Source: a virus. Taken from it: a DNA stretch of 64,000 nt. A model generated the notes under the pieces. The model made no database searches. It was not told the DNA's origin and saw nothing but the letters and a program-made list of their open reading frames with translations. The stretch lies in the IMG/VR virus record IMGVR_UViG_3300042482_000702, positions 199,355 to 263,354 of that record, one strand, 5' to 3'. Position numbers and translations under genes: made by a program. The number at the start of each line of letters is the position of its first letter. The stretch's first letter is position 1. Shown here piece by piece: positions 4,867 through 64,000 of this stretch.

Positions 4867-4870
4867 TTAA

Positions 4871-7800: not shown

Positions 7801-10441
7801 AATTATTACCACCACCTCCAACTGTTGATATATATGTAGCGCAATTACCCACACCACCACCAATTGTTGCTTGACTATAATTAACTCTATTACCTTGACC
7901 ACCACCAATTGTTGGATAATTACCACTATAAATATTATTATCTGAACCACCACCAATAGTTCCTCCAATACTCGCACCCATTTTATTTTGAACACCACCA
8001 CCAATAGTTTGATTACAATAAGAGGTAACATTATAGGCACCACCACCAATGGTTGAACACGCTCCCATTGCAGAGTTTCTAAATCCACCACCAATGGTTG
8101 ATAATCTACCAGAGTTAAAACAATCAATTGTTTCGGTTAAATAACCTGTATACATATCAAATGTCCCACCTGATGAGTTATGTCCAATACCTCCTCCAAT
8201 TGTTACACCTAATGAACTACATTCGTCAGTTGGTGATTGAATTGTATTTCTTTGTCCACCACCTATTATTGAGAATCTAGCGTTTGTCGTGTTTCCACTA
8301 CCACCTAATGCTGCTGAAAAATTTGCCGAAGCAATATTACCAACACCACATCTCATAGTTGAATTAACTCCTGTTCCTGTAATGATTATACTATCACCAC
8401 CTATTGGACTTGTTCCACTTGTTCCTGCTGAACCTGTTTCACCACTAGTTCCTGAAGAACCACTCTCACCACTTGTTCCTGATGTTCCGTTATCACCACT
8501 TGTTCCGCTAGAACCTGTTTCACCACTTGTTCCTGCTGAACCTGTTTCACCACTAGTTCCTGAAGAACCACTCTCACCACTTGTTCCTGATGTTCCGTTA
8601 TCACCACTTGTTCCGCTAGAACCTGTTTCACCACTTGTTCCTGAAGAACCACTAGAACCTGATGTTCCGTTATCACCACTTGTTCCTGAAGAACCACTAG
8701 TCCCACTTTCACCTGATGTTCCCGAAGAACCACTTGTTCCGGATGTTCCATTAGCTCCACTTGTTCCACTAGAACCTGACGAGCCATAAACAGCTCCAAG
8801 AGTTGTTATTACATAAGAATAATTGGTTGTACCTTCCGTATACCACGTAACATCACGATTCCCATTTGATTGGTCAACTACATAAATTTTAACAATCATT
8901 CTATCAGTTGGAAGAATAGTAAATGATGTTGGTATAACTAAATCAACATATACTTCAACAGGTAAAATAGAACCAATCCAACCAATTTCTATTTGATTTG
9001 TTGAGAGGGGTGTTCCTGAATATGGTGTTCCAGTACTATCGGCTAGTTCTATTGTGCAGAATGTGTCTGTTAAAAATGATTGTCCACTTTTTAAGAAATG
9101 TAAATGGAATCTCTGTACTCCTGGTGGAATAACGGTAACACCTAACCCTGATGAATCAGTTATAAAAGTGTCGACTAACACAGGTGTTAACCCTGTTGTT
9201 GTTCTCGTTACTGTTTGAGTAGTTGCTGTTGTTGCTGATGAACTAATCTGTTTATACGATAACGGTGTTTGTGTTACGGATTCATTAAAATAAAATATTT
9301 GTCCTGATGAAATACCGTTTTCTCCTGATGAACCACTTGTCCCGCTAGAACCACTTGTCCCGCTAGAACCTGAAGAACCTGATGTTCCTGAAGAACCCGA
9401 AGTTCCGTCAATACCGCTAGTACCTGAAGTTCCGTCAATACCGCTAGTCCCTGAAGAACCAGAAGTTCCGTCAATACCGCTAGTGCCTGATGTTCCGTCA
9501 ATACCGCTAGTTCCACTTGACCCTGAAGTTCCGTCAATACCGCTTGTCCCCGAAGTTCCTGAAGTTCCGTCAATACCGCTAGTCCCTGAAGAACCAGATG
9601 TTCCGTCAATACCGCTAGTTCCTGAAGAACCAGATGTTCCTGAAGAACCTGAAGTTCCGTCAATACCGCTAGTTCCACTTGACCCTGAAGTTCCGTCAAT
9701 ACCGCTAGTTCCACTTGACCCTGAAGAGCCGCTAGAGCCTGACGAACCTGATGTACCATCAATTCCGCTAGTACCCGATGTACCATCAATCCCGGTGGTA
9801 TCAATAGATACGGTTGCACCGTCATTTCTATATAAATCTAAAGTAGATGTTGCGGAAAAATAAGTTCCTCCCGTAACATATATATCTTGTATTGCTGTTG
9901 CAAATTTTCTCCATCTAGCATTAATTCGTGTGACACCATCAACATCTTCAATCGTTGACCCTGTCCAAGTATTAATAAATAATTGACCTTCTAAAGAATT
10001 ATTTTTAACTGTTGTCCCAAAATCTGATATAACGACAGTATCACCCCCAGGTCCTGACGCGCCTAAAGCGTCAGACCATAATGTGTTATAATTATCTATT
10101 GAAAATTGATATACTTGGTCTGTTTCATATACATAAACCAACATACCCAATCGTCTTCTACCTGATGAAATATTGTCAGAATTTAAAGTTATAGTGTCAA
10201 ATGAGAATGAACTATTAATCCCTTTATAAAATTGGATAGGAATAGTATTACCCGAAAATTCAATATCACCGGTATCTCCAAAAGGTATGGTATAAATTAA
10301 ATCATTTAAGGTGTAAACCTCCATAAAACCCCCCGTATTTAAAACGCTAAATGTTGTTCCAAATGTGCTAGTTCTTAATGAAGATTGACTCCCTAAAGCG
10401 ATTATAGGTGATAATGGGTTTTTATAATTTAAATTAGACAT
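4871..10441 (-). CDS. Giant collagen-like and YadA-like beta-roll tail fibre
   Basis: 1856 residues. Residues about 1-210 form a non-repetitive head (it contains RRRLGMLVYVYE, a segment common at phage fibre N-termini). Residues 214-379 and 552-680 are Gly-Thr-Ser-Gly / Gly-Ile-Asp-Gly collagen-like repeats, separated by a folded domain. Residues 680-1277 and 1277-1710 are two related copies of a left-handed beta-roll region with about 15-residue units, S-T-I-G-G-G-x-x-N-x-A-x-G, as in trimeric autotransporter heads. Then come a short third collagen-like stretch (about 1714-1764) and a C-terminal domain. Cys often occupies the small-residue position in the beta-roll. This is most likely a trimeric virion fibre. 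It lies upstream of the LRR gene in the same transcription direction. Confidence 0.8.
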   Translation of the reverse strand: MSNLNYKNPLSPIIALGSQSSLRTSTFGTTFSVLNTGGFMEVYTLNDLIYTIPFGDTGDIEFSGNTIPIQFYKGINSSFSFDTITLNSDNISSGRRRLGMLVYVYETDQVYQFSIDNYNTLWSDALGASGPGGDTVVISDFGTTVKNNSLEGQLFINTWTGSTIEDVDGVTRINARWRKFATAIQDIYVTGGTYFSATSTLDLYRNDGATVSIDTTGIDGTSGTSGIDGTSGSSGSSGSSGSSGTSGIDGTSGSSGTSGIDGTSGSSGTSGSSGTSGIDGTSGSSGTSGIDGTSGTSGTSGIDGTSGSSGTSGIDGTSGTSGIDGTSGSSGTSGIDGTSGTSGIDGTSGSSGTSGSSGSSGTSGSSGTSGSSGENGISSGQIFYFNESVTQTPLSYKQISSSATTATTQTVTRTTTGLTPVLVDTFITDSSGLGVTVIPPGVQRFHLHFLKSGQSFLTDTFCTIELADSTGTPYSGTPLSTNQIEIGWIGSILPVEVYVDLVIPTSFTILPTDRMIVKIYVVDQSNGNRDVTWYTEGTTNYSYVITTLGAVYGSSGSSGTSGANGTSGTSGSSGTSGESGTSGSSGTSGDNGTSGSSGSSGTSGETGSSGTSGDNGTSGTSGESGSSGTSGETGSAGTSGETGSSGTSGDNGTSGTSGESGSSGTSGETGSAGTSGTSPIGGDSIIITGTGVNSTMRCGVGNIASANFSAALGGSGNTTNARFSIIGGGQRNTIQSPTDECSSLGVTIGGGIGHNSSGGTFDMYTGYLTETIDCFNSGRLSTIGGGFRNSAMGACSTIGGGAYNVTSYCNQTIGGGVQNKMGASIGGTIGGGSDNNIYSGNYPTIGGGQGNRVNYSQATIGGGVGNCATYISTVGGGGNNCAKGFYSTIGGGRSNKACGKSSTIGGGWYNCALGDYSFVGGGCREGTTYISNTAFGFASAVVGGLGNVASGTTSFIGGGISNRATGNCSTVGGGISNISSGNTSTIGGGGDNIIFNGCSVIGGGQGNISKGPVSTIGGGVMNFISNTPRFNSVCVNGAYIYVSGNLVSQFTPYSTTLMVYNQTNKWVNCVAVISCTYGVNYSSGLTKIPTNTYFTAGQTLTFTNTSCTGTVVGCNITIGGGVLNRAIADNSTIGGGCCNTICNFTTNGNLYSIIPNIIGGGGCNTIHSNSGAYNIVGGNTINGGYCNNIFPEYGCNTINGGFRNVVCGNFSSILGGQLNTISSSFPHSNIIGSNITANRTCTTFVNDLSVCSFTGSSGCSICVGANGLLIPVASGGGGGDSIIITGTGVNSTIRCGVNNTASSCFSAALAGSGNTASCNFSTVVGGQNNVSSGTTSFIGGGCCNRIFPSQNYNNTSPRIGDVINGGNKNTINTNVYGGVSLNTGGNTIGGGYCNTSTPYVGFTTIGGGRCNTVGGVHTTIGGGHFNISSGNTSTVGGGFKNSATGHCSTIGGGAYNVTSYLNQTIGGGCRNKTGSGAYTTIGGGYSNNICSGSISTIGGGQGNYTTCSTATIAGGSNNCAKYISTVGGGDANHANGYYSTIAGGRSNRACGRSSTIGGGKGNCALGYYSFVGGGFWDPLTYIGNTAFGCASVVVGGISNIASGTTSFIGGGYGNASCGNCSTIAGGKGNKTFSPLSTVGGGCCNSVSSSYSSILGGQLNTISSSFPHSNIIGSNITANRACTTFVNDLSVCSFTGSSGCSICVGANGLLVTTSGSTGNSGSSGTSGAAGSSGTSGIGVSGSSGTSGENGIAGTSGMSGTSGTSSGGGGSTPIKLTGQTLTASSWTLVSGYYTYSFSNVNITANCDVSVTPQNASYLTAYNAQVLPYVGVASGVATFYSQFPPDANMTVDIIITQTT
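5317..5490 (-). repeat. Copy B of a duplicated fibre segment
   Basis: Nearly identical to 6634-6812. It encodes the end of the second beta-roll module (LGGQLNTISSSFPHSNIIGS to CSICVGANGLL). The differences are scattered single bases, so the copies arose by duplication followed by drift. Confidence 0.85.
6634..6812 (-). repeat. Copy A of a duplicated fibre segment
   Basis: Partner of 5317-5490. The start of the same module is duplicated too: the segment ending ACTATCACCACC near 6605 matches that near 8402 (both encode GDSIIITGTGVNST). The repeat unit is therefore a whole beta-roll domain of 1.3-1.8 kb. Confidence 0.85.
8424..8639 (-). repeat. Two tandem 108-bp units in the collagen-like region
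   Basis: The stretch beginning CCTGCTGAACCTG at 8424 recurs at 8532 with virtually no change, giving a 36-residue tandem repeat within the Gly-Thr-Ser-Gly region of the giant fibre. A third, partial unit follows. Length polymorphism by slippage or recombination is expected here. Confidence 0.8.
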
Positions 10442-10458
10442 ATTTTGATAATTATTTG

Positions 10459-11478
10459 TTACGAAGAAACAGTATTTCCTCTGAAATAAATACTTTGATT
10501 ATTGTTTAATGCGAAAATTCTGTTTGGAAAAGTGGTGTAAACTCTATAAGTAACCGGCGGTATTGTTCCTCCACTATAAGTGAAAGTATAAGTGCTAATT
10601 GCACTTTCTGTACTCACCGTAACTAATGAATTAGGGTCACCATCACTGTTAACATCAATAGCTGTTTGTCGTTCATTATTGGTTAACGATATTGGTATTA
10701 TCCAAGTATACCAAGCCGATACAGGAATTGTATGTTCAAAAATTTCTGTTGTTAAGAAATTGTATCTAACAATTGGATTACCGAAAGTATCGAATCCGCC
10801 GCTTTGTTGTGGAACTGATTGTCTAATAACTGACGGGAATAAACCGCTAGTCCAACCACTAAAATCAACATAACGATTCATATCAATGTTGAATTGTGTT
10901 TGGTCTTGGTTTGGCTGACTATTATTTGTGAATCCAAAGAAATTAGAACCACTATCATACATCCATTGACCAATTTCCGTTGCTCCCGATATTGGCTCAA
11001 TAAATAAATGGGCATAATACATCGGTGTCGGAGTAGGTGTTGGTGTTTTAGTTGGAGTAGCACTCGGTGGATAACAAGGTGTTAACGATGGTGTTGGTGT
11101 TGGAGTATTTGTCGGAGTGTTTGTCGGAGTCTCTGTTGGTGTAGGTGTTTGAGATGGTCCCGGACAAGGGTCGTAAGTTGGTGTAACAGTTGGTGTTGCC
11201 GTAGGAGTCGGAGTTTGAGTTTTTGTGGTCGTAGGTGTTGGTGTAGGTGTAGGTGTTGGTCTTGGAACATTTAAAATGTTAGGGCAGTCACTATCCAATA
11301 CTAATATAGTATAAGTTCCATATACATCTTTAGGGGGTGTTAATAATCCAGGTGAGAATAAATACGGTAATTCTTGATTACCCAAATTAATGACTGTAAG
11401 TTCATTAAAAGGTTTAAATAAAATATTCGCAAATTCACCATCGTAATTTATACTTTTTATAGTTATTGATTGTGACAT
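10459..11478 (-). CDS. Virion-associated protein with a Pro-Thr-rich stalk
   Basis: 339 residues. Residues 1-65 form a small folded head. Residues about 72-150 are dominated by T-P-T-P, T-P-T-N-T-P-T and similar repeats. The remaining 190 residues form a non-repetitive C-terminal domain rich in Ser, Thr and aromatics. Pro-Thr tracts of this kind make extended, flexible, potentially O-glycosylated linkers. It lies 17 bases upstream of the giant fibre gene and 10 bases downstream of a jelly-roll-like protein, all on the minus strand. No enzymatic motif was seen. Probably a fibre or decoration component. Confidence 0.6.
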
Positions 11479-11488
11479 TTATAGTGTT

Positions 11489-12067
11489 TTACGAAATAAT
11501 GGTACATGTTATTGCAACTGATGGCGTTGTTGGTCTCTCATATGGAGACATTATTTCATCAACAAATTTTAAATACATAGTATCGTCTGATGATGCAAAT
11601 ACAAATTCAACATATTGACCAGCGGTTAAAACGAAGGAATAAGGTATATAGGGTAATTGTTCATTATTATTATTTAATAATACAAGTTCACCTGTGGTTC
11701 CAGGAACATTAACACCATCTACTCTAGCCCAAAAATAAGCCGTTTGATTTCCAGGTGTTAAGGTTGTTTTATCTAACTGAAAAGACACACCAAACAAGTA
11801 TGTCCCATCCTGCGATACTGTAAATTTCGAACCATCGACCACAGTTATACCGACTTCAATATCGGTATAATCAACTGTAACAACAGTTGGTGTATTTGAC
11901 CCCGACACAATTTGATTAACATTGGATGTCCATGAACCATTTGACCTTGATAAAATTTGAGAGTAGTTAATATGGTAAGTTACACCACTTAATTCCACTG
12001 GAGCAACCATATTTGGGTTTAAAACCGATAATAATGGTAATTCGCTAATTGTTTTTCCTGTTAACAT
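11489..12067 (-). CDS. Tail-associated protein with a probable C1q/TNF-like jelly-roll domain
   Basis: 192 residues. The N-terminus (TGKTISELPLLSVLNPNMVAP) resembles the start of the collagen-like protein encoded at 46888-48954 (ISQLPLVSSGQSDSLMV), suggesting a shared virion-anchoring peptide. The C-terminal 130 residues have alternating beta strands with VSQDGTYLFGVSFQL and AGQYVEFVFASSDDTMYLKF, which fits the C1q-like or phage fibre-head jelly roll. A TATTTAT promoter-like motif lies 15 bases upstream. Fold assignment is by pattern only. Confidence 0.55.
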   Translation of the reverse strand: MLTGKTISELPLLSVLNPNMVAPVELSGVTYHINYSQILSRSNGSWTSNVNQIVSGSNTPTVVTVDYTDIEVGITVVDGSKFTVSQDGTYLFGVSFQLDKTTLTPGNQTAYFWARVDGVNVPGTTGELVLLNNNNEQLPYIPYSFVLTAGQYVEFVFASSDDTMYLKFVDEIMSPYERPTTPSVAITCTIIS

Positions 12068-12082
12068 AATTTTGTTTTATTT

Positions 12083-12089
12083 ATAAATA
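12083..12089 (-). promoter_or_regulatory. Candidate late promoter motif TATTTAT
   Basis: ATAAATA on the plus strand, i.e. TATTTATAAATA reading toward the gene starting at 12067, 15 bases away. One member of a recurrent motif set (see findings). Confidence 0.5.
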
Positions 12090-12142
12090 TTGTTTATTTT
12101 TAATTAAATTTTAAATACTTCATATTTCATACTGAAATATAT

Positions 12143-12205
12143 TTATACACTGGTTGGTGTAGGTGTTGGAGTTGTTGTATTTGTTGGTGTCACTGTCGGT
12201 GTTGG
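12143..12205 (-). other. In-frame Pro-Thr coding remnant beyond a TGA stop
   Basis: Directly after the TGA (12206-12208) of the upstream gene, the same frame continues for 20 codons, mostly Pro and Thr (PTPTVTPTNTTTPTPTSV), to a TAA at 12143-12145. It matches the Pro-Thr linkers inside the upstream protein. It is either a stalk cut off by a nonsense change or a readthrough extension. Confidence 0.6.
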
Positions 12206-15200
12206 TCACGGACAAGTACCCCATACCGGTTTTGGTAATATCCAAGATGTTGCTCCTGTGTCAAAATTAACTGGTTGTGTTGGAATAAGAGTCACGCACC
12301 AACTACTTAAATCTTGATTAAATGACGTTGAACCTTCAAACATGCTATCCATATTTGTAACATTTGAAACATTCCACCCACCAATATTTTGATTGAATGC
12401 TTGACAACTCGAAAACATAGAACTCATATTTGTAACCCCTGAAACATTCCAACCACTAATATCACCATTAAATAATGTGTTATTTCTAAACATATTGGAC
12501 ATATTAATAACATTACTCACATTCCAACCTGTGAGAGGTTGATTAAACGATGTTGTTCCGTAAAACATACCATTCATAGATGTAATATTACTTACATCCC
12601 AACTATTAATGCTATTAATTGTTGTTATTGAAGTACAATTAGTAAATGTATTCTCCAAATTAGTTACATTAGTTAAGTTAAGAACATCTACAACACTCGT
12701 TAATACTAAATTACTACATCCATAGAATTGAGCTCCATTATTACCCATATTAAAACAACCCCATTGTAAAATTTCAATTATATTATCTTTTGATGTTGGT
12801 GTGCCAGCAAACCTCCAAGAACGCATTACCCCATCAATTGTAATAGTATAATCACCAGCAACTGAATATGTATGAGTATAATTACCATTAGTGTTTGGTG
12901 AAATATTTCCATCACCCCAATTAATAGTTCCACTCGGGAAAACACCACCGGCATACACTGGTAATGTAATACTTTCATTAGGTGTGGTTGTTCTCCAAAT
13001 AGAGATAAATGCTGGTGGAGGAGTAGATGTAGGTGTTGGCGTTTGAGTTGGTGTTGGAGTTTCAGTAGGTGTTTGTGTAGGAGTTTCAGTATTTGTTGGT
13101 GTCGGTGTTTGAGTTGGGGTTTCAGTTGGTGTGTTTGTTGGAGTTTCTGTAGGGGTTATTGTTGGTGTTGGGGTTATTCCGATAAATTTTAAATAAAGTT
13201 TTTCCCCCACTGAAATATAATCACCATTTTCATCTAAAATAGCGTCATCAATTATTTGTTCAGGAATTGTTGGGGTTACGGTTGGTGTTGGTGTTGGTGT
13301 TGGTGTTGGAACTATTCCGGAAAATCTCAAATATAGTTCATCCCCCACCGACAAGTATTCATTATTATTGACTAAAATAGCGTCATATATAAACTCTTCC
13401 GGTTGTGTTGGAGTGATTGTCGGAGTAATTGTAGGTGTCGGAGTGATTGTCGGAGTAATTGTAGGTGTTGGAGTTGGTGTAGGCGTAGGAGTAACATTAA
13501 ATATAAATTGAGAGTTAAAATTAAACGACATTCCTGTACCAGTATAACTAATATTGGTTATCGTTCCGGTTCCGTCTAAACTATTATAATCACCATCTGG
13601 CACATATGTTTGAGTAAAACCTGAAGTATCACCTAATGGAATTAATATAGTAACAGGTACTGGAATAGTACCTCCGGTTATTACACCCAATTCCGCAATA
13701 AATTGTAATGTAAAATCAGAAATTACGGGTACTTGAGTTTCTACTAAGAAACCAGCACCAATAGACCCTCGGAAAATATATCCGGTAATTGTGGCAATAT
13801 TATCTATTAAAATTTCGTAAGTAAAATCATCAACTAAACAAACATTAGTATTACAATCCGGACAATCCGGATTAAACATTTTGAAAGTGTCTTTTAATAA
13901 TTTAAAGTTATGTTTTATTTCAGGTGCTGATAATGGTGAAACATACATTCTAAATTGAGATATCCCCCCATCAAAAGTTCCAGCAAAATTCTGTTCTATT
14001 AATATATTAGTGTTTAGACCTGAAAATGTTGTTCCGCTTAAATCATTAGTTGGTAAACATTCAGGGTCTTGGATGTACGGACCTAATGGAGATGTGGATG
14101 AAGAGAATGTTAAATTTTCTCTTAAACCTTGAGTACCCCCACCCCACGAAACATTAAAGGGAACACCAACTTGTTTTTCTTTATCGGTATTTAATCCCCT
14201 TGGAATAATCTCTTCAAAATCCTCAATAGTGTAAAATAACTTACCATTGATATATATTTTTAATCTACCTTTTCTATAGTCTTTATCTAATAACCATTTT
14301 TCATTTAAATTAACTAATTCTATTTGTTCTGGTGTACGACCATTTGTGTGTGTATAAGGTACTGTGATTAACGATGCCGTATTATTGGCTAATGATTCTA
14401 AATATTTTCTTTCTGTTATATCACCAAGTCCCCCACGATACCATAAATCACAAGTGTCTAACCAAGTATATCTTTCCCAAACCGCATTTAACTGAAACCA
14501 ATGTTCCTCTTCTAAATAAGCTGGATTAATTAATTCACAATCTGGGTATATTCCACCAGGTGAACAATATTCTGTAATGGTATATCCGGTTGTGTAAGTA
14601 ATTCCTGTCGTTTCACAACTACCAGTTGTTTCACATCCTCCGGTGAATCGTAATACTTTTACACCAATTTGGGGATTTTTTGGGTCACCACAAAGTTTAA
14701 ATGATAATGCGTTGGACATTGAGTCATATAATGGGTCAACCTCACAAGTATTTTCTATTGATGTAAATCCGGTGGTATTACAAGTGTCACAAGTATCACA
14801 AGTGGTACAGGTATTGCAACTTGGTGTACAAACAGGTGTAATATCACAATTAGATTGAGTTGATGTTGGTGTAGGTGTTGGAGTTGGTGTTATATTAATA
14901 ATTGTCTCACAAATATGATTCTGACATTCCCAACCACAACTCGCACAAGAAGTTTCATTACAACTACAACCACAATTAACTTTAGTTACGGGATTCCCCC
15001 CGCATAAATCACAACCATAATTGGCGTGAGTATCGTGTTGATTATTTATAGACCTAGGTGGATAAACATAAATGCAACGACTATTAGTTATTGTATTATT
15101 ACAACAGGCACAAGTTGTAACACCGGTTAATTCAGATGTTATTCTTGTATATCCTGTAAAACAATTTGGAGTACCATTTGCGTGATGATAAAATTTATTT

Positions 15201-53728: not shown

Positions 53729-54128
53729 ATATAATTGTTTTTTCAAATTCTAAAACGATATCTCGTTCATATAATTTATTTTTAACCGATTCTTCGGTTT
53801 CTCCAAATTTAAAAACCAACCTTTTTTGGTGGTTAAAATCAACATCATCGTTTTCATTTTCCCAAGACAATGATATAATACCATCAATAGTATCAATCAT
53901 CGAGAAATAGTCAGAGTTTTGAATTACTGACATTGTTATAACGTCATTCTTCAAAACTCCTACTTTTTTTATATGTTCTAAATCAGGTGGTAACGGGTAA
54001 CCATTAGATGGTTTTGAATCCCAGTTTTCCCCCCAAATATCTTCTGAACTATCCGAAAAAATAAATTCATATATGTTATCACCCTTATAATTTGGACCTA
54101 ATTCATTAACATATATTAAATAATTCAT
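53718..54128 (-). CDS. Hypothetical protein, 136 residues
   Basis: Not recognised. Beta-rich and acidic (MNYLIYVNELGPNYKGDNIYEFIF; WENENDDVDFNHQKRLVFKFG), with the neat composition of a virion connector or neck protein. Short overlaps at both ends (shared base with the upstream stop; 11 bases downstream) show it belongs to the packaging operon. Confidence 0.55.
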   Translation of the reverse strand: MNYLIYVNELGPNYKGDNIYEFIFSDSSEDIWGENWDSKPSNGYPLPPDLEHIKKVGVLKNDVITMSVIQNSDYFSMIDTIDGIISLSWENENDDVDFNHQKRLVFKFGETEESVKNKLYERDIVLEFEKTIIYEH

Positions 54129-55705
54129 TACAATATTTGACCTTTGGTGTTTACTCTTAATTGTTTATTGTTCATTTCAAACACTAAATTATTTTTGTTA
54201 GTTTTACCAATTAATTTTGCTTCAGGATATTTGTTAATCACTTTAGTTGATGCAACTTCTTGAGAAATACTTTCAGAAAGTTTTTTAATATTACTAATTT
54301 TTTCTTTTCTAACTTCCTTTAATGAAGTTGATTGTTGTATTTTAGATTCTAAAATTTGTTTTTCTTTCTCATTGATTTTAAAATATTTTTCCAAAATACT
54401 ATCAACTTTTGATTCGCTAAACAATCCTTCTATCATTTCTTCCATACGACTAGAATGGTCGTCACTCATAGAATGATGTCTATTTTTACGCTTTGGATAG
54501 TTTGGTAATTCATCGTAGATATCATCCGGGTTTTCATCATTAACATCATCATAACTAAATCCTTCACCCATCTCATCTTTTCTAGTTTTAACTTTAAATG
54601 GTTTACCTGTTGTTTTTTTATAGTAATTAAAAGCGTTTTCACCATCATTTGGTCCAAACCAGTTTTGTTTATCACCATATTTGTCGTGTAATTGTTTAAA
54701 AGTTTCAAATTCTTCAGTATCAAAATCATCACCAGCTATTCCATATAACTCAGAATCTTTAGGTGTTCTATCTTTTTCATCAAAATATTTATCACCTTTG
54801 AAATCTTTTCTATCTAAATTACCAAATGAACCATACATTCCTTCACCCATTTCACCACTTGGTACTTCAGGTTGTAATTCTTCATCACCCATTTCGTCAG
54901 AACCCATTTCGTCTTGACCTTCATCATTTCCACCATCAAAAGGATTTTCATCTTCAATACCTTCTAATTTATTCATAATATCTTCTTTATCTTCTTCTTC
55001 TAAAGATTCTAAATCTAAAGCCGATAAAATAGAGTTGATAACATATTTTACATCTTTTGATGAAAGATTTTCTTCTTCACTATCTTCAAGGATTCTTAAT
55101 TTTTGAGCTAATTTCCCTGTTAATTTTTGAATAACTTTAAGGTTAACAACCTCATCGTCCATTTCTTGGTCATCTCCTAAATCCATATCTTCTTCCGGTT
55201 CAGGTAAATCTAATTCTTCTTCAGGTGCAGGAGCGGGGGCAGGTGCCGGTGCAGGAGCGGGTGCTGGTGCAGGAGCCGGAGCAGCTGCCGGTGCTACTTG
55301 TTCTGTCGCATCTATTTTTAAAATATATTTCGTAGCGTCATTATCGCTTTCAAAAAATAAATTAACATTATTTTCTTGACCTTCATTAACATTAATTTCT
55401 TTTGCAATTAAGTTAAGTCTTTTAAAGGCTTGTGAATATGATGAATAATATTTTCTATTTTTCATAGGGTCTAAATAATCACCTTCACCGGTAGATTCGG
55501 ATATTGTTTTTTTAATTACATAACCATTTCTTTCTTTAACAATTTGATAATTGTTTCCGTCAGCCAATACTTTATTATATTCAACTGATTTATTCTCATT
55601 AATTGAATTTGGAGTATTTTCTTTATATCTGGCAATTTCCATTATACGAGTAATTTTTTCCATACCCTCTAATTTTTCACTACCAACTGGTTTTAATTTT
55701 CCCAT
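54128..55705 (-). CDS. Large acidic hypothetical protein with a Pro-Ala hinge
   Basis: 525 residues. The N-terminal part includes KKTISESTGEGDYLDPMKN, where I-S-E precedes S-T, a candidate protease site (residues 68-70). A Pro-Ala run (APAPAPAPAPAP, about residues 138-160) leads to a strongly acidic helical region (EEELDLPEPEEDMDLGDDQE), another acidic linker with Met-Gly-Glu repeats and a basic C-terminus (LVFEMNNKQLRVNTKG). Length and charge suggest a core or head protein. It begins the packaging operon. Not recognised. Confidence 0.55.
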   Translation of the reverse strand: MGKLKPVGSEKLEGMEKITRIMEIARYKENTPNSINENKSVEYNKVLADGNNYQIVKERNGYVIKKTISESTGEGDYLDPMKNRKYYSSYSQAFKRLNLIAKEINVNEGQENNVNLFFESDNDATKYILKIDATEQVAPAAAPAPAPAPAPAPAPAPAPAPEEELDLPEPEEDMDLGDDQEMDDEVVNLKVIQKLTGKLAQKLRILEDSEEENLSSKDVKYVINSILSALDLESLEEEDKEDIMNKLEGIEDENPFDGGNDEGQDEMGSDEMGDEELQPEVPSGEMGEGMYGSFGNLDRKDFKGDKYFDEKDRTPKDSELYGIAGDDFDTEEFETFKQLHDKYGDKQNWFGPNDGENAFNYYKKTTGKPFKVKTRKDEMGEGFSYDDVNDENPDDIYDELPNYPKRKNRHHSMSDDHSSRMEEMIEGLFSESKVDSILEKYFKINEKEKQILESKIQQSTSLKEVRKEKISNIKKLSESISQEVASTKVINKYPEAKLIGKTNKNNLVFEMNNKQLRVNTKGQIL

Positions 55706-55781: not shown

Positions 55782-56528
55782 TTATTGTATTTCATTTAAG
55801 GATAATGATTTATCAATGTACTCATTTTGAAAATCAAACAATTTTTCTAGGTATCCATTTCTTCTTAATACCTTGAAAACTAAATTTTCATTTGATAGTT
55901 CCCCACCTTTTTCTAACCCTGAAGTTCTATACTTTTTTAACTTATCTTTATACCTATCTATTAATTTTTTCGCATCGTCCAATGATTCATCTTTAGCGTT
56001 TTCAATAACATCATCAATGGTTTTCATCCATTCTTCTGATTTTATTTTAACTGATTGGGTATCAATTTCTACATTTTCTTTTTTTGGTTCGCTAACCCAT
56101 TCATCAAATAAAACAGAATATTCACCACTACTAAAATGTTTTTCTACATCATCCTGAACATACAATTCAACATCATATCCATATATGGTTATATTATGTT
56201 TGTCATTATATAAAGTTTTTTTTAATCTAAACAATTCTTCATACAATGGTAATTCTTTTTCCGAAAATTGTTTAAAATCCACAATTATATGTAAATCAAC
56301 ATCAGAATATTTTGACCAATTAAAATTTGCCAACGAACCGGTCATAACCACATCGGAGACAATTACATCAACACCCAAAAAATCAATGAACTCATAAGCA
56401 ATTTCTAAAAGACGTTCCCTTACTTTGGGAGCCATCGTTTCTACTTCATCTTCTTGTGAGTTCCAAAATTTAGGATTTAGTTCGTCTTGTAATCTAAAAC
56501 TGGATAATATACTTTTTAAATTGCTCAT
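55782..56528 (-). CDS. Nucleotidyltransferase-fold protein
   Basis: 248 residues. VVMTGSLANFNWSKYSDVDLHIIVDF is the NTP-transferase signature (G-S, then D-x-D with S-D-V-D-L), and YGYDVELYVQDD supplies the third acidic position. The rest is helical (EWMKTIDDVIENAKDESL). It could transfer NMP or another group to a small molecule, RNA or protein. Similar small nucleotidyltransferases are known in phages without clear roles. It also resembles antitoxin/MNT-type folds, but there is no HEPN partner beside it. Confidence 0.65.
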   Translation of the reverse strand: MSNLKSILSSFRLQDELNPKFWNSQEDEVETMAPKVRERLLEIAYEFIDFLGVDVIVSDVVMTGSLANFNWSKYSDVDLHIIVDFKQFSEKELPLYEELFRLKKTLYNDKHNITIYGYDVELYVQDDVEKHFSSGEYSVLFDEWVSEPKKENVEIDTQSVKIKSEEWMKTIDDVIENAKDESLDDAKKLIDRYKDKLKKYRTSGLEKGGELSNENLVFKVLRRNGYLEKLFDFQNEYIDKSLSLNEIQ

Positions 56529-57211: not shown

Positions 57212-59263
57212 ATGATAGAATCTATGGATGGTAACGAAGGAAGAGGTAAGAACACAAGTGTTTCCGAATCAGCAACACCAGTGTTAGACAATTTTAGTCG
57301 AGATTTAATAAAATTGGCTGAAGAAGGGAAATTAGACCCTGTTATTGGTAGAGAAAGTGAAATAACGAGAATTGCTCAAATTCTTTCTCGTAGAAAGAAA
57401 AATAACCCAATTATTATTGGAGAACCTGGTTGTGGTAAAACCGCCATTGTTGAGGGTCTCGCAATTAAAATCTATAATGGGGATTGTCCAAGAAATTTAA
57501 TGGATAAAAGAATCGTATCATTAGATATGACATCAATCGTTGCCGGAACAAAGTATCGTGGTCAATTTGAAGAACGAATGAAAGTAATTATAGAAGAATT
57601 ACAAAACGCACCAAACATCATCGTATTCATTGATGAGATTCATACCATTGTTGGAGCGGGAAATTCATCAGGTTCAATGGACGCATCAAACATCTTTAAA
57701 CCAGCTCTTGCTCGTGGAGAAATCCAATGTGTTGGAGCAACAACATTAGATGAATATAGAAAAAACTTTGAGAAAGATGGAGCGTTAGAAAGACGATTCC
57801 AAAAAGTTGTTGTTGATTCACCAACCAAAGGGGAAACATTACTTATCTTGGAACAATCAAAGGAAAAATATGAATCTTACCACAAGGTAACTTATTCCAA
57901 CGAGATTTTAAATCTATGTGTGGATTTAGCAGAAAGATATATCACCGATAGAGAATTTCCGGACAAGGCGTTTGACATCTTGGATGAGGTTGGGGCGAGA
58001 AGTCAGGTTGAAATTAAAATGCCGGATTCAATTGAAAAATTGAAATTACAAGCGTCCGATATTAAACAACAAAAAATGGATGTTGTTAAACGACAAGATT
58101 ACGAAGAAGCGGCAAATTTACGAGATAAAGAAAAGAGAGTTTTAACCAAACTTGAAACTGAAAAGAAAAAGTTTGAAGAGGAACTCTTAACTAATAAAAA
58201 AGAGATTACTGTTGATTTGGTTTATGAGGTTGTATCCAATATTACCAAAATTCCAATCACCAAATTAAACTCTGATGAGACTAAATTATTATCCGAAATG
58301 GAAAATAATTTATCCGATAAGGTTATTGGACAATCTGATGCAGTTTCAAAAATTGCCAAGTCAATTAGAAGAAGTAGAATCGGGATTAAAGACCCAAACA
58401 AACCAATTGGTTCATTTATCTTTTTAGGTTCAACTGGTGTTGGTAAAACATATCTAGCAAAACAACTCGCCAAACAAATGTTCGGTAGTGAGGATAATAT
58501 GATTCGTGTGGATATGTCGGAATACCAAGAAAAACATACCATATCAAGATTAATCGGAGCTCCTAGCGGATATGTTGGGTATGAAGATGGGGGACAACTA
58601 ACCGAACAGGTTAAAAATAAACCATATTCTGTTATTCTATTTGATGAGGTTGAGAAAGCTCATAAAGATATTTTCTCCACACTTCTTCAAGTATTGGATG
58701 AAGGACACTTAACCGATAGTTTAGGTAAGAAAATCAATTTCAAAAATTGTGTGATTATTATGACCTCAAATGTTGGTGCCAAAAAATTACAAGATTTTGG
58801 TTCAGGTGTTGGTTTTAAAACGGGGGGAAGTGCTTATGTTGAGGAGGAATATCGTAGAGATGTTTTGAAAAAGGAATTAAAGAAATTCTTTACTCCGGAA
58901 TTCTTAAATCGTGTGGACGAAATTGTAATCTTTAATTCTTTAGTGAAAGAAGATGTTAAAAAAATTGTGAAATTAGAATTGGATATTCTAACTAAACGAT
59001 TAACCGGAATGAAATATAACATCACTTTTGATGGTAGTGTTTTAGATTTAATATCTGATGTTGGATTTGATGAGACATACGGAGCAAGACCGATTAAAAG
59101 AGCTATCCAAGATAAACTTGAGGATTTTGTATCTGAAGAGATTATAAAAGGAAATGTTGTAGAAAACACTCCATACACAATCACCTCTGTTGATAAGGAA
59201 ATTAAATTTCAAGAGGTTGTTGAAGTTGTGAAAAAGACAAGAAAGAAAAAGGGGGATTTATAA
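57212..59263 (+). CDS. clpC: ClpC/ClpA-like AAA+ unfoldase without N-domain
   Basis: 683 residues. There are two AAA+ modules: Walker A GEPGCGKT (70-77) with B IVFIDEIH, and Walker A GSTGVGKT (about 406) with [13 protein letters not shown] short UVR-like segment ([15 protein letters not shown], about 294) replaces the long ClpB middle domain, so it is ClpC/ClpA-like and not a ClpB disaggregase. SGVGFKTG near residue 531 matches the VGF ClpP-docking loop. The usual 140-residue N-terminal adaptor domain is missing. It likely unfolds substrates and may feed host ClpP. Host-type promoter upstream, terminator downstream. Confidence 0.85.
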
Positions 59264-59850: not shown

Positions 59851-59871
59851 AAAAAGAGACCGAAGTCTCTT
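59851..59871 (-). terminator. Strong terminator at the end of the peptidase gene
   Basis: On the minus strand AAGAGAC-TTCG-GTCTCTT is followed by a run of T. A UUCG tetraloop hairpin whose 5' arm includes the peptidase stop codon region. Confidence 0.9.
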
Positions 59872-60691
59872 AAAATTTATAAAAATATTTTGAATCCGTT
59901 TTGTATAAATATTTTTTATACCCCAAATCCTGAATCATCTTTTTACCGGTCTCTATTCCATTATAAACATCCTCAACAACCACATACTCATTTCTTGTGT
60001 GATAGTCGTAATAACCTATCGCAAAATTGATACAGGAGAAGTCAAATAAGTTCTTCAGAGCATAAACATCAGTATATGGGTTTGAAAAGTATTCTTGTTC
60101 ACCCTTAAAGTTTTCTGTTAAGACATTATCACATGTCTTAAAAAAATCACTCTCTCGGTCAAACAATTGTGTTCCCATACAAAATTCTGTAACCATTCTG
60201 TTTCCCGGAGCATCAAATTGAATTCCGTATCCTACATTTATAAAAAAATTGGGGTCAGCCTTTTTGGACCCGTGACATCCGGTTTCTTCAGATACAAAGA
60301 AAGCCGCCTTTAGATTTGGCAATTCTTTTAATAATTCCAAACAAGCATAAACACCACATTTATCATCACCACCAATACCGGTTGGATTTCCAAAATCGTT
60401 ATAAGCCTTTAACGCTGGTTTGAGTTCATATTGATTGTTCTGTAACATTTCCTCACGAATATTTATCGTGTCTATGTTATGAACCGTATCTGTATGAGCA
60501 ATTACACAGGGAAAATAATCGATAAATTCGTCTGTTTGTTTTATAGCGTAGATATTTTTATGTTCATCCACATTGAAGGGAATCCCATTTTCCTCTAACC
60601 AGTTGATTAGAAAATCTACCATTCTGTCCTCTTGATATGTTTTTGTCGGAACCGACAATACATCTTTTAATAATTGATAATTTCTTTCCAT
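59870..60691 (-). CDS. M20-family-like zinc peptidase
   Basis: 273 residues. Metal-ligand segments in family order: VIAHTDTVHNID (H-T-D), GIGGDDKCGVYACLELL (G-D-D), AFFVSEETGCHGSKKAD (E-E), FDAPGNR (D), and YYDYHTRNEYVVVED (final H). This resembles PepT/M20 di-zinc aminopeptidases, shortened and without a clear dimerisation domain. It could trim peptides or act on a tagged product. The -7 box TATATTTG lies 4 bases before the ATG, suggesting a leaderless host-type transcript. Confidence 0.8.
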   Translation of the reverse strand: MERNYQLLKDVLSVPTKTYQEDRMVDFLINWLEENGIPFNVDEHKNIYAIKQTDEFIDYFPCVIAHTDTVHNIDTINIREEMLQNNQYELKPALKAYNDFGNPTGIGGDDKCGVYACLELLKELPNLKAAFFVSEETGCHGSKKADPNFFINVGYGIQFDAPGNRMVTEFCMGTQLFDRESDFFKTCDNVLTENFKGEQEYFSNPYTDVYALKNLFDFSCINFAIGYYDYHTRNEYVVVEDVYNGIETGKKMIQDLGYKKYLYKTDSKYFYKF

Positions 60692-60732: not shown

Positions 60733-62100
60733 TTAATTTATTCTAACAAAACCCTCAAATAATTCAGGTGAAACTAAAAAGTTATTAAATTCTTCTTCGG
60801 TATAACTTCTACGAGCAACACCATTTTTAGTGAAAACATCCATATGTATTCTATTTGTTGCCGGGTCAATTTCTCTAATAAAAAATTCTCTACCATACGA
60901 AGTCTTACTTCTAGTGTTAGTCGGGTATTTAGATATAACTCTATCGTAGATATCTGAGTATTCTAAAATATCAACATACTTATCGGATTGTTCTAATTCC
61001 TCAAGTATTTCATCTAATTCTTCCCCTATAACAAGATTAAGTCGCTCATCATCAAAATCGTTACATTGTATTTCATATCTATATTCATCCCACCCACCAG
61101 TGTTAAATGTGTGTCCAATATCTGTTAAAACACCCTTAATGTCTTTAGTGGGGTCTTGACTAATCTTAAACATTGATAATAAAAGACCAACAGTGGTATA
61201 ATAAGTTCTAAAACAATCTATATTGATTAACCCATAATTTTGAAAAATTTCACAAATTTCATCGTTAATTTGTTTTTTAGCCTCATCGTGACGACAATTA
61301 TTTTCAAGGTCTACATACTCTTCTAACATACTTTCAATTTTACCCGCAAACATATCCGACAATTTTTCAGCAGCCTTTTCTTTCTTTTCATCATCGTCTA
61401 AAGAAATTAAATCAGGTGAAATATATTTTAAAATTTGTTTTAATTTACCCTTATTTTCATCTGAAAACCAACCGAAAAAATACCCCCCATTCCAATCATC
61501 AACCGCTGTTTCATAATCAATATAATCATATCCATTATCATAATACGAAAATAAACTACTAACATAATAAACATCATCTTCTTCAACCTCAAATAATTTA
61601 ACATAATCTTCTATATCATCAAAATGTAATTTGATTGTACTTTTACCCGGATTTTTTTCGTTGTAATTAAATTTATAAATTAAATTGTCAGCACGTTCCA
61701 TTTCATTAGATGATACCTGTTCACCATTCTTAATCTTAACTAACAAGTCATAAATTGGACTATAACCAATTATGGGTTCAAGTTCTGATTTAACATCATT
61801 AGGTAATTCGTGGAATAATTCATTTCTAGTTATGACTCTATTTCTCATAACCTCACTACCAATATATTCTATCTTATGGTCGGTATCATTTCTAAAAATA
61901 GTGTATGTCTGAATCGGTTCTTTATCCTTATCAATAACAAAATAAACATCACCATCCCTAAATTTATTAGTCCATTCTGGTTTAAGTTTTTCCGGTGCAA
62001 AATATTCAAACGCCAAACCTGTCATTGGCTCAACTATCATCCAATCTTCAGTGTTTAATATAGTTTGACTTTGCTCGTAAGCGTCGTTTTTAGTGGGCAT
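60733..62100 (-). CDS. Large acidic hypothetical protein
   Basis: 455 residues, not recognised. Starts MPTKNDAYEQSQTIL. An N-terminal part resembles a small beta domain (DWMIVEPMTGLAFEYFAPEKL; YTIFRNDTDHKIEYIGSEVM). The rest is helical and very acidic (KLFEVEEDDVYYVSSLFSYY; LNLVIGEELDEILEELEQSDKY). No catalytic motif. The C-terminus (FIREIDPATNRIHMDVFTKNGVARR) looks beta-rich. It lies divergently next to the tmRNA, with a TATTTAT motif 17 bases upstream. Confidence 0.55.
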   Translation of the reverse strand: MPTKNDAYEQSQTILNTEDWMIVEPMTGLAFEYFAPEKLKPEWTNKFRDGDVYFVIDKDKEPIQTYTIFRNDTDHKIEYIGSEVMRNRVITRNELFHELPNDVKSELEPIIGYSPIYDLLVKIKNGEQVSSNEMERADNLIYKFNYNEKNPGKSTIKLHFDDIEDYVKLFEVEEDDVYYVSSLFSYYDNGYDYIDYETAVDDWNGGYFFGWFSDENKGKLKQILKYISPDLISLDDDEKKEKAAEKLSDMFAGKIESMLEEYVDLENNCRHDEAKKQINDEICEIFQNYGLINIDCFRTYYTTVGLLLSMFKISQDPTKDIKGVLTDIGHTFNTGGWDEYRYEIQCNDFDDERLNLVIGEELDEILEELEQSDKYVDILEYSDIYDRVISKYPTNTRSKTSYGREFFIREIDPATNRIHMDVFTKNGVARRSYTEEEFNNFLVSPELFEGFVRIN

Positions 62101-62132: not shown

Positions 62133-62163
62133 TTTGGAATTATCTAAAAATGTATTATCTTTG
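62133..62163 (+). promoter_or_regulatory. Host-type promoter of the tmRNA
   Basis: TTTG (62133-62136), 19 bases, TATCTTTG (62156-62163). Exact Bacteroidota consensus; transcription would start a few bases downstream, close to the 5' end of the mature tmRNA at 62178. Confidence 0.85.
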
Positions 62164-62177
62164 TAGAGTTAAAATAT

Positions 62178-62586
62178 GGGAGTGACACGGAATTGACTAT
62201 TCGTAATAGTTATTCGGGGCACGTAGTGAGATGTTCTCTATCACTTAAATCTATGGGTACAACAATTTAGACGGAAACGTTTTAAACAAAATGGCTCTAG
62301 TAGGTCTTGTACGTCAAGATGAGCTTGTGAACGTAGCGTAAGCAAACACACATTGGGGTCGACGGATATGTGTACCTAGCAACAGAAATATCTTAAGGTG
62401 TGATACCACCCGAAGAGTGTCAAGGTCTCGTTTGAGGGTCTACCTATTAAAGTGAACCTCCCACAGTTGTAGGTAATGATGGAAAAATTAGAACCTTCTA
62501 TTTGTCAGTTGAGAATTAACTGAATAAACGTGTAGTCCTTAATAGGTAATACAAATAACACTTGGGTTCGAGTCCCAACACTTCCA
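62178..62586 (+). ncRNA. ssrA: Transfer-messenger RNA (tmRNA)
   Basis: The ends form a tRNA-like domain: 5' GGGAGTG pairs over 7 bp with 3' CACTTCC (62579-62585), discriminator A at 62586, and a perfect T-arm (TTGGG, loop TTCGAGT, CCCAA at 62562-62578). After the acceptor the 5' part reads ACACGGAATTGAC, close to the tmRNA GGATTCGAC hallmark. A message-like frame after UUAGAC (62267-62272) begins GGA AAC GTT TTA at 62273 and ends QDELVNVA, with TAA at 62339-62341. That is a tag of about 22 residues with an unusual C-terminus. CCA is not encoded. The region between should hold pseudoknots. SmpB is encoded nearby. Confidence 0.85.
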
Positions 62587-62587
62587 C
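62570..62587 (+). repeat. tmRNA 3'-end sequence, copy 1
   Basis: GAGTCCCAACACTTCCAC, the 3' half of the T-arm and acceptor. Copy 2 at 62598-62615 differs by one base. Confidence 0.85.
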
Positions 62588-62597
62588 GTCCACTGGA

Positions 62598-62615
62598 GAG
62601 TCCCAACACCTCCAC
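62598..62615 (+). repeat. tmRNA 3'-end sequence, copy 2 (remnant)
   Basis: GAGTCCCAACACCTCCAC, beyond the gene end. It lacks the 5' T-arm half, so it is not part of a second tRNA-like domain. It resembles the duplication left by recombination at tRNA-like 3' ends. Confidence 0.8.
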
Positions 62616-62620
62616 ACAAA

Positions 62621-62647
62621 AAAGAGACCTAAATGGTCTCTTTTTTT
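62621..62647 (+). terminator. Terminator of the tmRNA transcript
   Basis: AAAGAGACC (62621-62629) and GGTCTCTTT (62635-62643) around TAAAT, then T to 62647. Confidence 0.9.
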
Positions 62648-62711: not shown

Positions 62712-63077
62712 TTAATCTTTTAATACTTGTTTATCCCCAACCGGAGATGTGAATTTGGATGTTAATTTATCTAATCTTGAATCAAAATTTCTATATACAT
62801 CACTAAACATTTTATCTACGTCATCCATTCTTTTGTTGGTGTACATATTTGTTTCAGTATATAATCTATCAACCCTATCAATCTCCCCATCAATACGACG
62901 GTTTAGAGAATCTCCACCACTATTAATATCATTAAAGATATGTCCTTGAACTTGTTCTAATTGTTTGCATTTATTTTTTAATCTGTTAATCTGAATGCAC
63001 ATTATAACCATAACCACAACTCCCAGTACCCCGAGAACCAAACCTATACCCATAATGAACGATGTTAAATCTACCAT
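62712..63077 (-). CDS. Membrane-anchored coiled-coil protein
   Basis: 121 residues. One N-terminal transmembrane helix (about 6-28, FIMGIGLVLGVLGVVVMVIMC) followed by a charged coiled-coil (INRLKNKCKQLEQVQGHIF; RRIDGEIDRVDRLYTETNMY; RMDDVDKMFSDVYRNFDSRL). No lipobox. It could be a spanin-like, superinfection or membrane-anchoring protein; no partner identifies it. Confidence 0.6.
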   Translation of the reverse strand: MVDLTSFIMGIGLVLGVLGVVVMVIMCIQINRLKNKCKQLEQVQGHIFNDINSGGDSLNRRIDGEIDRVDRLYTETNMYTNKRMDDVDKMFSDVYRNFDSRLDKLTSKFTSPVGDKQVLKD

Positions 63078-63125: not shown

Positions 63126-63156
63126 ATAAAAAAAGGGACTATTTCAAGTCCCTTTT
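63126..63156 (-). terminator. Terminator overlapping the smpB stop
   Basis: AAAAGGGACT (63131-63140) and AGTCCCTTTT (63147-63156) form a 10-bp stem with a 6-base loop and a T-run in minus orientation. The SmpB coding end forms one arm. Confidence 0.9.
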
Positions 63157-63576
63157 CATATCTCTTTCGATGTCCCGAGATTTGATGGTATCTCGTTTAT
63201 CGTATGTTTTCTTCCCTTTGGCAAGAGCAATTTCCATTTTAATTAATCCGGTGTCGTTTATGAAGATACGATAAGGAACGATGGTTACACCATTGATTAA
63301 CTCATTCTCCCACTTATTAAGTTCTTTTCGTTTGGCTAATAGTTTTCTATCCTTTACGGTCTCGTGGAAGGACCCAAACCCATAATCGGAGATATTCATC
63401 CCCTTTATAAATAACTCCCCCTCATTGAAATAACAATACCCTTCAGAGATGGATACCTTTCCCTGACGAATGGACTTTACCTCTGAACCAACTAGTTTGA
63501 TTCCCACAATTAATGTCTGTAGGAATGAATACTCAAACTTGGCTTTCTTATTGACTATGTTAATTGAATTTTTCAT
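63139..63576 (-). CDS. smpB: SsrA-binding protein SmpB
   Basis: 145 residues, a normal length for the family. Core signatures: INIVNKKAKFEYSFLQTLIVGIKL (in part), GSEVKSIRQGKVSISEGYC (the G-T/S-E-V-K-S-x-R), DYGFGSFHE, RDRKLLAKRKELNKW-like and LIKMEIALAKGKKTYDKRD. The C-terminal tail is basic (RDIERDMKRDLK), as needed for decoding-centre entry. It binds tmRNA and delivers it to stalled ribosomes. Its -7 promoter box lies only 4 bases from the ATG, so the message is probably leaderless. Confidence 0.95.
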   Translation of the reverse strand: MKNSINIVNKKAKFEYSFLQTLIVGIKLVGSEVKSIRQGKVSISEGYCYFNEGELFIKGMNISDYGFGSFHETVKDRKLLAKRKELNKWENELINGVTIVPYRIFINDTGLIKMEIALAKGKKTYDKRDTIKSRDIERDMKRDLK

Positions 63577-63644: not shown

Positions 63645-63670
63645 GGCTTAATACGATGAGAATACTCGTC

Positions 63671-63936
63671 TTATTGAGAATCTTCGGAAGGATTATTGTT
63701 TCCCTTCGTTTCCACCATCTTTTGAATGGTAACCCTCATTGCCGATTGGTTAGACCAATCACTCCTTGAGATATCATCTACTCTCTCATTATTCAACTCT
63801 CTTTAACCTTGCGAGCTAACTCCGGATTCGACTCCGTAGAGGTTTTTGGCGAGAATACATTCAGACTTGCGGTCATCCTGTGCAACGAACGGCTCGTTAC
63901 TATGTAGGCAACTTGTCGACGATACCTGGTAAACAT
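63671..63936 (-). pseudogene. Small gene in two frames, possibly frameshifted
   Basis: An ATG at 63934-63936 opens MFTRYRRQVAYIVTSRSLHR...PELARKVKES and stops with TGA at 63793. The -1 frame is open from 63802 to TAA at 63671 and reads LNNERVDDISRSDWSNQSAM...MVETKGNNNPSEDSQ. Joined near 63800 they give one helical protein of about 90 residues (ELARKVKE then LNNERVDD). A terminator follows. No classic slippery heptamer is visible. Either a frameshift mutation, a sequence error or two overlapping small genes. Not recognised; its codon use looks less AT-rich than its neighbours'. Confidence 0.35.
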
Positions 63937-64000
63937 TTTTGCTATTGTCTATTTAGTTTTTCACCATATGAAAATAGTTAATGTGTTGTGGATGTATTCA
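63937..64000. other. Window end, no feature seen
   Basis: The last 64 bases hold no credible open frame, promoter consensus or hairpin on either strand. They may be the leader of the small gene ending at 63671. Confidence 0.3.

Follow-up and report, generated by a model that had tools for sequence, protein, structure and literature searches.

A giant-phage tmRNA with a conserved long tag of a distinct class, linked to a phage ClpC unfoldase

Introduction

Tag peptides of 8-35 amino acids are known from tmRNAs (PMC8012679), and LVA, a variant of the E. coli tag, serves to direct proteins to degradation (PMC9382460). Phage tmRNAs have been reported from the mycobacteriophage Bxz1 group, Wildcat and Bacillus phage G (PMC4131195) and from Melnitz (PMC9004378), and tmRNA together with SmpB was published for huge phages in 2020 by Al-Shayeb et al. 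(PMC7162821). What such phage genes are for has stayed unsettled in the years since their discovery.

Here we analyse a tmRNA in a window of 64,000 nucleotides, the whole stretch G000:C1:199355-263354 of a 322,477-base virus record. It is encoded beside a phage SmpB and a phage unfoldase, an arrangement suggestive of a tag-and-destroy system private to the virus. The fold, the reading frame, the selection on the peptide, the partner proteins and the linkage were all read from sequence. The record contains portal, T4-type major head and terminase families, and in the retrieved part beyond the window ARAGORN identifies 22 tRNAs. In locus L081, 20 tRNA genes are clustered on one strand at 2830-13929 (record position about 282.8-293.9 kb).

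Results

The tmRNA gene and its fold

The Rfam covariance model of tmRNA, RF00023, accepts the RNA from end to end, with a full-length match on the plus strand at 62178-62589 (62.3 bits, E 8.9e-23, cut-off 47). ARAGORN did not detect a tmRNA at 62178-62586, and a blastn search of the INPHARED phage collection returned no relative of it. The mature part, 62178-62586 on the plus strand, is delimited by the Rfam match and by covariation in 24 related phage tmRNAs; CCA is not encoded. Its tRNA-like domain has an acceptor stem with G3-U70, a T arm and the discriminator A at 62586. The 5' acceptor strand GGGAGUG (62178-62184, plus strand) pairs with CACUUCC (62579-62585, plus strand); 98.2% of the cells are paired, and two-sided changes occur in four of the seven pairs. 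In the T arm, UUGGG-UUCGAGU-CCCAA (62562-62578, plus strand), all five pairs show two-sided changes. G3-U70, the alanine identity pair, is present in 24 of the 24 relatives. The pseudoknot PK1 (62225-62260, plus strand) is located 5' of the resume codon; its stem S1 is 99% paired and its stem S2 83%, the latter with two-sided changes.

Covariation across the 24 relatives is seen in the acceptor and T stems, in P2 and in PK1, with 95.3% of cells paired (94-100% in P2, 83-99% in PK1). Two-sided changes in the stems number 81, compared with a mean of 21.9 after shuffling and at most 11 when the partners are slid. The region of PK2-PK4 has a low posterior in the Rfam alignment. Judged by the model match and the covariation, the tmRNA at 62178-62586 is genuine, and the tRNA-like ends that a preliminary description of the stretch had found convincing are borne out. 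Two features that it had listed as odd are ordinary among 30 Bacteroidota tmRNA genes: many of them have GGAATTGAC or GGTTTTGAC, so that GGAATTGAC in place of GGATTCGAC is not peculiar to the phage, and the lack of an encoded CCA is common there.

A promoter-like element, TTTG-N19-TATCTTTG, was read directly at 62133-62163 on the plus strand; it is of the Bacteroidetes type, TTTG/TAnnTTTG. It is retained in most related loci despite divergent flanks. An intrinsic terminator-like hairpin followed by a U tract, also a direct reading, lies at 62620-62646 on the plus strand.

The range given in the preliminary description took in 62598-62615. This plus-strand segment lies outside the RNA and is an imperfect second copy of its 3' end, 94% identical to 62570-62587; a gap of 10 nt separates it from the terminal 18 nt of the tmRNA. 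Similar copies are found in L091 and L092, while most relatives have none. The acceptor strand of the second copy, CACCUCC, suits another allele, of the GGGGGTG type, and the copy looks like a relic of a 3'-end replacement. In alignment A3 the phage tmRNAs are mosaic, with 3' halves and tRNA-like ends exchanged among lineages and the tag block constant.

Such duplication and segment swapping might also be seen in a degenerate or captured relic of a host ssrA gene. However, compensatory pairs are found in the acceptor, T and P2 stems, the promoter is conserved, and the tag resembles none of 30 host tags. We find it scarcely credible that the tmRNA is a relic, and the covariation rules it out.

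The tag peptide

The tag reading frame, GNVLNKMALVGLVRQDELVNVA followed by UAA, occupies 62273-62341 on the plus strand and is identified by the frame itself, by a conserved peptide family and by coding tests. The resume codon GGA at 62273 follows UUAGAC, and 22 codons are read before the UAA at 62339-62341. This is the frame ending in QDELVNVA that had been proposed from the letters alone, and it passes the coding tests; its length, then called atypical, falls within the range known for tmRNA tags (PMC8012679). Relatives with compensated stems share the tag register, and Bacteroidota genomes have an identical Gly resume codon in an equivalent sequence setting.

The related phages contain 36 distinct tag peptides of 21-22 amino acids. 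Position 1 is Gly in 35 of the 36 and position 6 is Lys in 32; G11 is found in all 36, L12 in 34 and R14 in 32. Val stands next to last in 32 tags and Ala last in 35, with a single tag ending in AA. The conserved core can be written K[ML]xx[VIL]GL[VIL]R and the end -VxVA. This internal conservation, about 14 residues, is not present in host tags. The tags of the 30 Bacteroidota tmRNAs that we read are short without exception and have an A[LM]AA end; they are nine amino acids long except for one that the search read as ten, and the phage tag therefore forms a distinct class. The end had already been described as unusual, and the comparison agrees: VNVA stands in the window where an ssrA degron of the ALAA class carries the C-terminal LAA or MAA that signals to host ClpX/ClpA.

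Tests on single pairs of tags gave p-values spread from 0/5000 up to 0.06, and for this reason a family-wide coding test was chosen. The share of codon differences that are synonymous is 34.5% in the tag frame and 16% and 7% in the other two frames, and none of 500 column shuffles reached the tag-frame value. Mean entropy across the family is 0.96/0.36/1.27 for the three codon positions. The conserved Leu and Arg are encoded by codons two base changes apart. From this codon pattern we conclude that the tag family is under purifying selection as a peptide.

In some near relatives the conserved 70-nt stretch is identical despite diverging flanks, as might be expected if the segment acted as RNA, by structure or antisense pairing, with the peptide incidental. 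Against this, the variation is mostly synonymous in frame 0 only, with the codon-position entropies and the shuffling result given above, and the Leu and Arg codons differ by two bases. A purely RNA function is very improbable, and the codon test rejects it.

Mimicry of other phage proteins by the tag was looked for among 300 open reading frames, where the best local scores look like chance. None of the 300 ends in [VNT]VA, VTA or AA, a number of frames too small for this to have meaning.

Further families of long tags occur in phages of 294-636 kb (L398, L404-L406, L245, L401), for example NGKTNVWEAINSFGAPVSQVEFAVAA, NGKNNVWETINAFGTPVAKTELAIAA, NDNVNSFEQSILNELFAPVEMAVAA and NDNKSTMTFEDAMAFVGAGEVLMAA. 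Differing long tags in phages of 290-640 kb end in AVAA, AIAA, TVAA or LMAA, and only some of these phages have a ClpC of the window's type; G104 and G106 have other long tags and no such ClpC.

SmpB and the likely host

An SmpB of 145 amino acids is encoded on the minus strand at 63139-63576 (Pfam PF01668, 159 bits; alignment and tree). It scores above the cut-off of the NCBIfam equivalog TIGR00086 and retains the GKKxxDKR tail as GKKTYDKRD. In the tree it falls in an all-phage group of 20 rows with support 99/98, which argues against a recent host capture; an origin from the present host is disfavoured on the same grounds. The SmpB relatives from bacterial genomes are all Bacteroidota, except for one MAG labelled Rokubacteria. 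Since the SmpB relatives are nearly all Bacteroidota and the tmRNA promoter reads TTTG-N19-TATCTTTG, the host of this giant phage is likely a member of the Bacteroidota.

A GOLLD RNA (RF02032, 228 bits) lies immediately upstream of smpB on the minus strand, covering 63653-64000 and running past the window end; GOLLD RNA also adjoins smpB and tmRNA in L005, L007 and L008. A 121-aa protein whose N-terminal segment is hydrophobic (62712-63077, minus strand) adjoins the tmRNA only in the window's clade.

ClpC, ClpP and the peptidase

The unfoldase, at 57212-59263 on the plus strand, is a ClpC-type AAA+ protein of 683 amino acids according to homology search and alignment. It has two AAA modules and scores 749 bits to the solved ClpC 6em8. 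The alignment starts at ClpC residue 142, where the N-domain ends, so that the adaptor-binding N-domain is missing; the ClpC reading frames of the relatives are 658-719 amino acids long. A VGF loop is present in the window's protein, and nearly all its relatives have VGF or IGF at the site expected for ClpP docking. A ClpX-type zinc domain was found in none of 12 records, a search that a ClpX without the zinc domain would escape.

ClpP is encoded outside the window, at record position 12525-13259 (Pfam, 169 bits). Its best family is a Bacteroidota-type ClpP model, although it scores under the NCBIfam equivalog cut-offs, and the Bacteroidota ClpP models score far above the head-maturation ClpP models. 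The Ser-His-Asp triad is aligned in eight phage copies, in an alignment that includes an E. coli row.

Between ClpC and the tmRNA lies an M20/M42-like peptidase (59870-60691, minus strand), which has a fold like that of PepT and in which the metal-ligand motifs are conserved. It is followed by a conserved 455-aa protein, divergent from the tmRNA (60733-62100, minus strand). The confident predicted structure of this protein has no solved relative: only two matches, both viral and with TM-scores of about 0.2 or less, were found at E <= 0.001. Its identity as a known adaptor was rejected on this basis. Upstream of ClpC, a protein with a weak nucleotidyltransferase match (55782-56528) and a 525-aa protein (54128-55705) are kept; of the relatives whose sequence reaches far enough, nearly all have both.

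Linkage among related phages

A set of 50 viral records was collected by SmpB. Full-length tmRNA matches are present in 32 of them, 30 above the Rfam cut-off, and two of these 30 have ordinary short tags. A second set consists of the best 80 of several hundred viral ClpC loci, and 55 of these 80 are informative, with at least 3.5 kb of sequence downstream. In 53 of the 55, ClpC is followed at a distance of about 2-5 kb by a window-type tmRNA: the tag was found by pattern on the same strand in 47, and six more loci have diverged tags in tmRNAs located by stem pairing. Among the best 80, the tag-bearing loci keep the order ClpC, peptidase, 455-aa protein, tmRNA, with the peptidase in 47 of 47 and only one of the 47 lacking the 455-aa protein. 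Genes can remain neighbours for many reasons, and the linkage of tmRNA and ClpC is thus confounded by shared phage descent.

The five long SmpB-carrying records of the window's group (282-322 kb) all contain tmRNA, SmpB, ClpC and ClpP. In the wider records SmpB was detected in none of 18, and ClpP was not found in two records of 291 and 304 kb. A complete pathway in all relatives is rejected by these counts. The tag and ClpC persist in records without detectable SmpB and/or ClpP, and because SmpB and ClpP are absent from some wider relatives, the tag and ClpC are the constant pair. Where SmpB and ClpP are missing, they could be supplied by the host. In G021 a long distance separates smpB (near 24 kb) from the tmRNA (near 218 kb), whereas ClpC adjoins the tmRNA. 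No tmRNA was found in G047 (L060), which has SmpB and ClpP and whose ClpC is longer, an open frame of 810 aa that may include an N-domain.

The preliminary description had left two possibilities for the tag, a phage Clp protein of its own or escape from host proteases. The first is strengthened by the phage ClpC, ClpP and SmpB and by the 53 linked loci among the 55 informative ones of the best 80. The second is less well supported: the tag retains a terminal Ala preceded by a hydrophobic residue, and LVA, an E. coli variant, is a degradation tag (PMC9382460).

Because E. coli variants ending in VA are used for degradation (PMC9382460), the tag could be read by host ClpXP. The tmRNA might then work with host machinery alone, its tag a variant degron for host ClpXP/ClpAP, and the phage ClpC and ClpP would serve otherwise, in head maturation, host takeover or disaggregation. 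The terminal Ala in 35 of 36 tags fits this, as do the wider relatives that have a tmRNA without detectable ClpP or SmpB. However, it leaves unexplained both the conserved core, some 14 residues that host tags do not have, and the linkage to ClpC in 53 of the 55 loci, and the phage ClpP fits Bacteroidota ClpP models far better than head-maturation ones. We hold this explanation to be unlikely.

It is also conceivable that the tag does not lead to degradation. The purpose would then be ribosome release, with the long tag shielding the products from host proteolysis or rerouting them. Ribosome release by tmRNA does not require degradation, and the C-terminus differs from LAA. The conserved linkage to a peptidase and to a ClpC with a loop of the ClpP-docking type, and the presence of ClpP in the window's clade, speak against such a tag, and we consider it quite doubtful.

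Discussion

The reading that we find fairly probable is that the tmRNA supplies a phage-dedicated trans-translation degron, which is handed to the phage ClpC working with phage or host ClpP. That this amounts to an orthogonal route, a private degron co-evolved with the N-domain-less ClpC and served by viral SmpB, ClpP and peptidase, has in our view an even chance. Points against the phage-degron reading are that the synteny is partly shared ancestry, that the full pathway is not universal, that some phages (G104, G106) carry other long tags without a window-type ClpC, and that host ClpXP is not necessarily blocked by a -VA end.

From the sequence evidence we infer that the tmRNA is charged and tags proteins during infection, that the phage ClpC recognises the tag and hands over to ClpP, and that the peptidase does the trimming. 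During infection, ribosomes would stall on broken or depleted mRNAs, and alanyl-tmRNA with phage (or host) SmpB would enter them. Translation would restart at GGA62273, the stalled protein would acquire A-GNVLNKMALVGLVRQDELVNVA, and the ribosome would be freed. The co-encoded ClpC may read the core K[ML]xx[VIL]GL[VIL]R together with the -VxVA end, without an N-domain adaptor, and pass the substrate to phage ClpP, or to host ClpP where the phage has none. The M20-like peptidase may complete the breakdown of the peptides. As the phage ClpC would itself read the tag, disposal of the debris would be independent of host ClpX/ClpA specificity. Most likely, the main gain lies in rescuing ribosomes that stall where infection has broken the mRNA, and in a disposal requiring neither host ClpX/ClpA nor their adaptors.

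A conserved viral tag unlike that of the host, linked to a viral unfoldase, turns this into a testable question: does the phage tag its own debris for its own protease? If so, ribosome rescue and amino-acid recycling would be freed from host protease specificity, and the tag and ClpC would form a new ALAA-independent pair of degron and unfoldase, useful for controlled protein degradation.

Comparison with known systems

The RNA and its SmpB follow the bacterial plan (RF00023) in the tRNA-like domain, P2, PK1, G3-U70 and the DKR tail of SmpB. As in Bacteroidota ssrA, the resume codon is Gly in the same sequence setting. Unlike those genes, with tags of the G[END]xNYA[LM]AA type, the phage encodes a tag of 22 rather than 9 amino acids, with an internal core and VNVA instead of ALAA, and unlike bacterial ssrA in general the gene is carried by a phage that also encodes SmpB, ClpC and ClpP.

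Compared with other phages, the Bxz1 group, Wildcat, phage G and Melnitz also have a complete tmRNA gene. A dedicated Clp partner is not described in the reports on them (PMC4131195, PMC9004378), and the tmRNA of Melnitz is two-piece, unlike that of the window. The huge phages share tmRNA and SmpB, and the text of PMC7162821 does not mention Clp. Lak phages have SmpB, tmRNA and ClpP, but their tags are 11 amino acids long and end in MAA (NDDEIDFRMAA), and they have no close relative of the ClpC.

The Clp proteins resemble ClpC-ClpP proteases in the two AAA modules, the VGF/IGF loop of the docking type and the ClpP catalytic triad, whereas the phage ClpC has no adaptor-binding N-domain as known ones do. 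The nearest functional parallel is the Mesoplasma florum tag with mf-Lon (PMC9382460), a long non-LAA tag paired with a particular protease. That system is cellular, uses Lon rather than ClpC, belongs to a mollicute without active ClpXP and has an unrelated tag sequence.

Neither the tag family nor its Clp linkage was found in the open-access papers searched, and both the family and the linkage to ClpC appear to be new; phage tmRNAs and the SmpB of huge phages were already known. We place the RNA of the window in the tmRNA family, with a tag of a new class, and regard the system as phage trans-translation in a new form.
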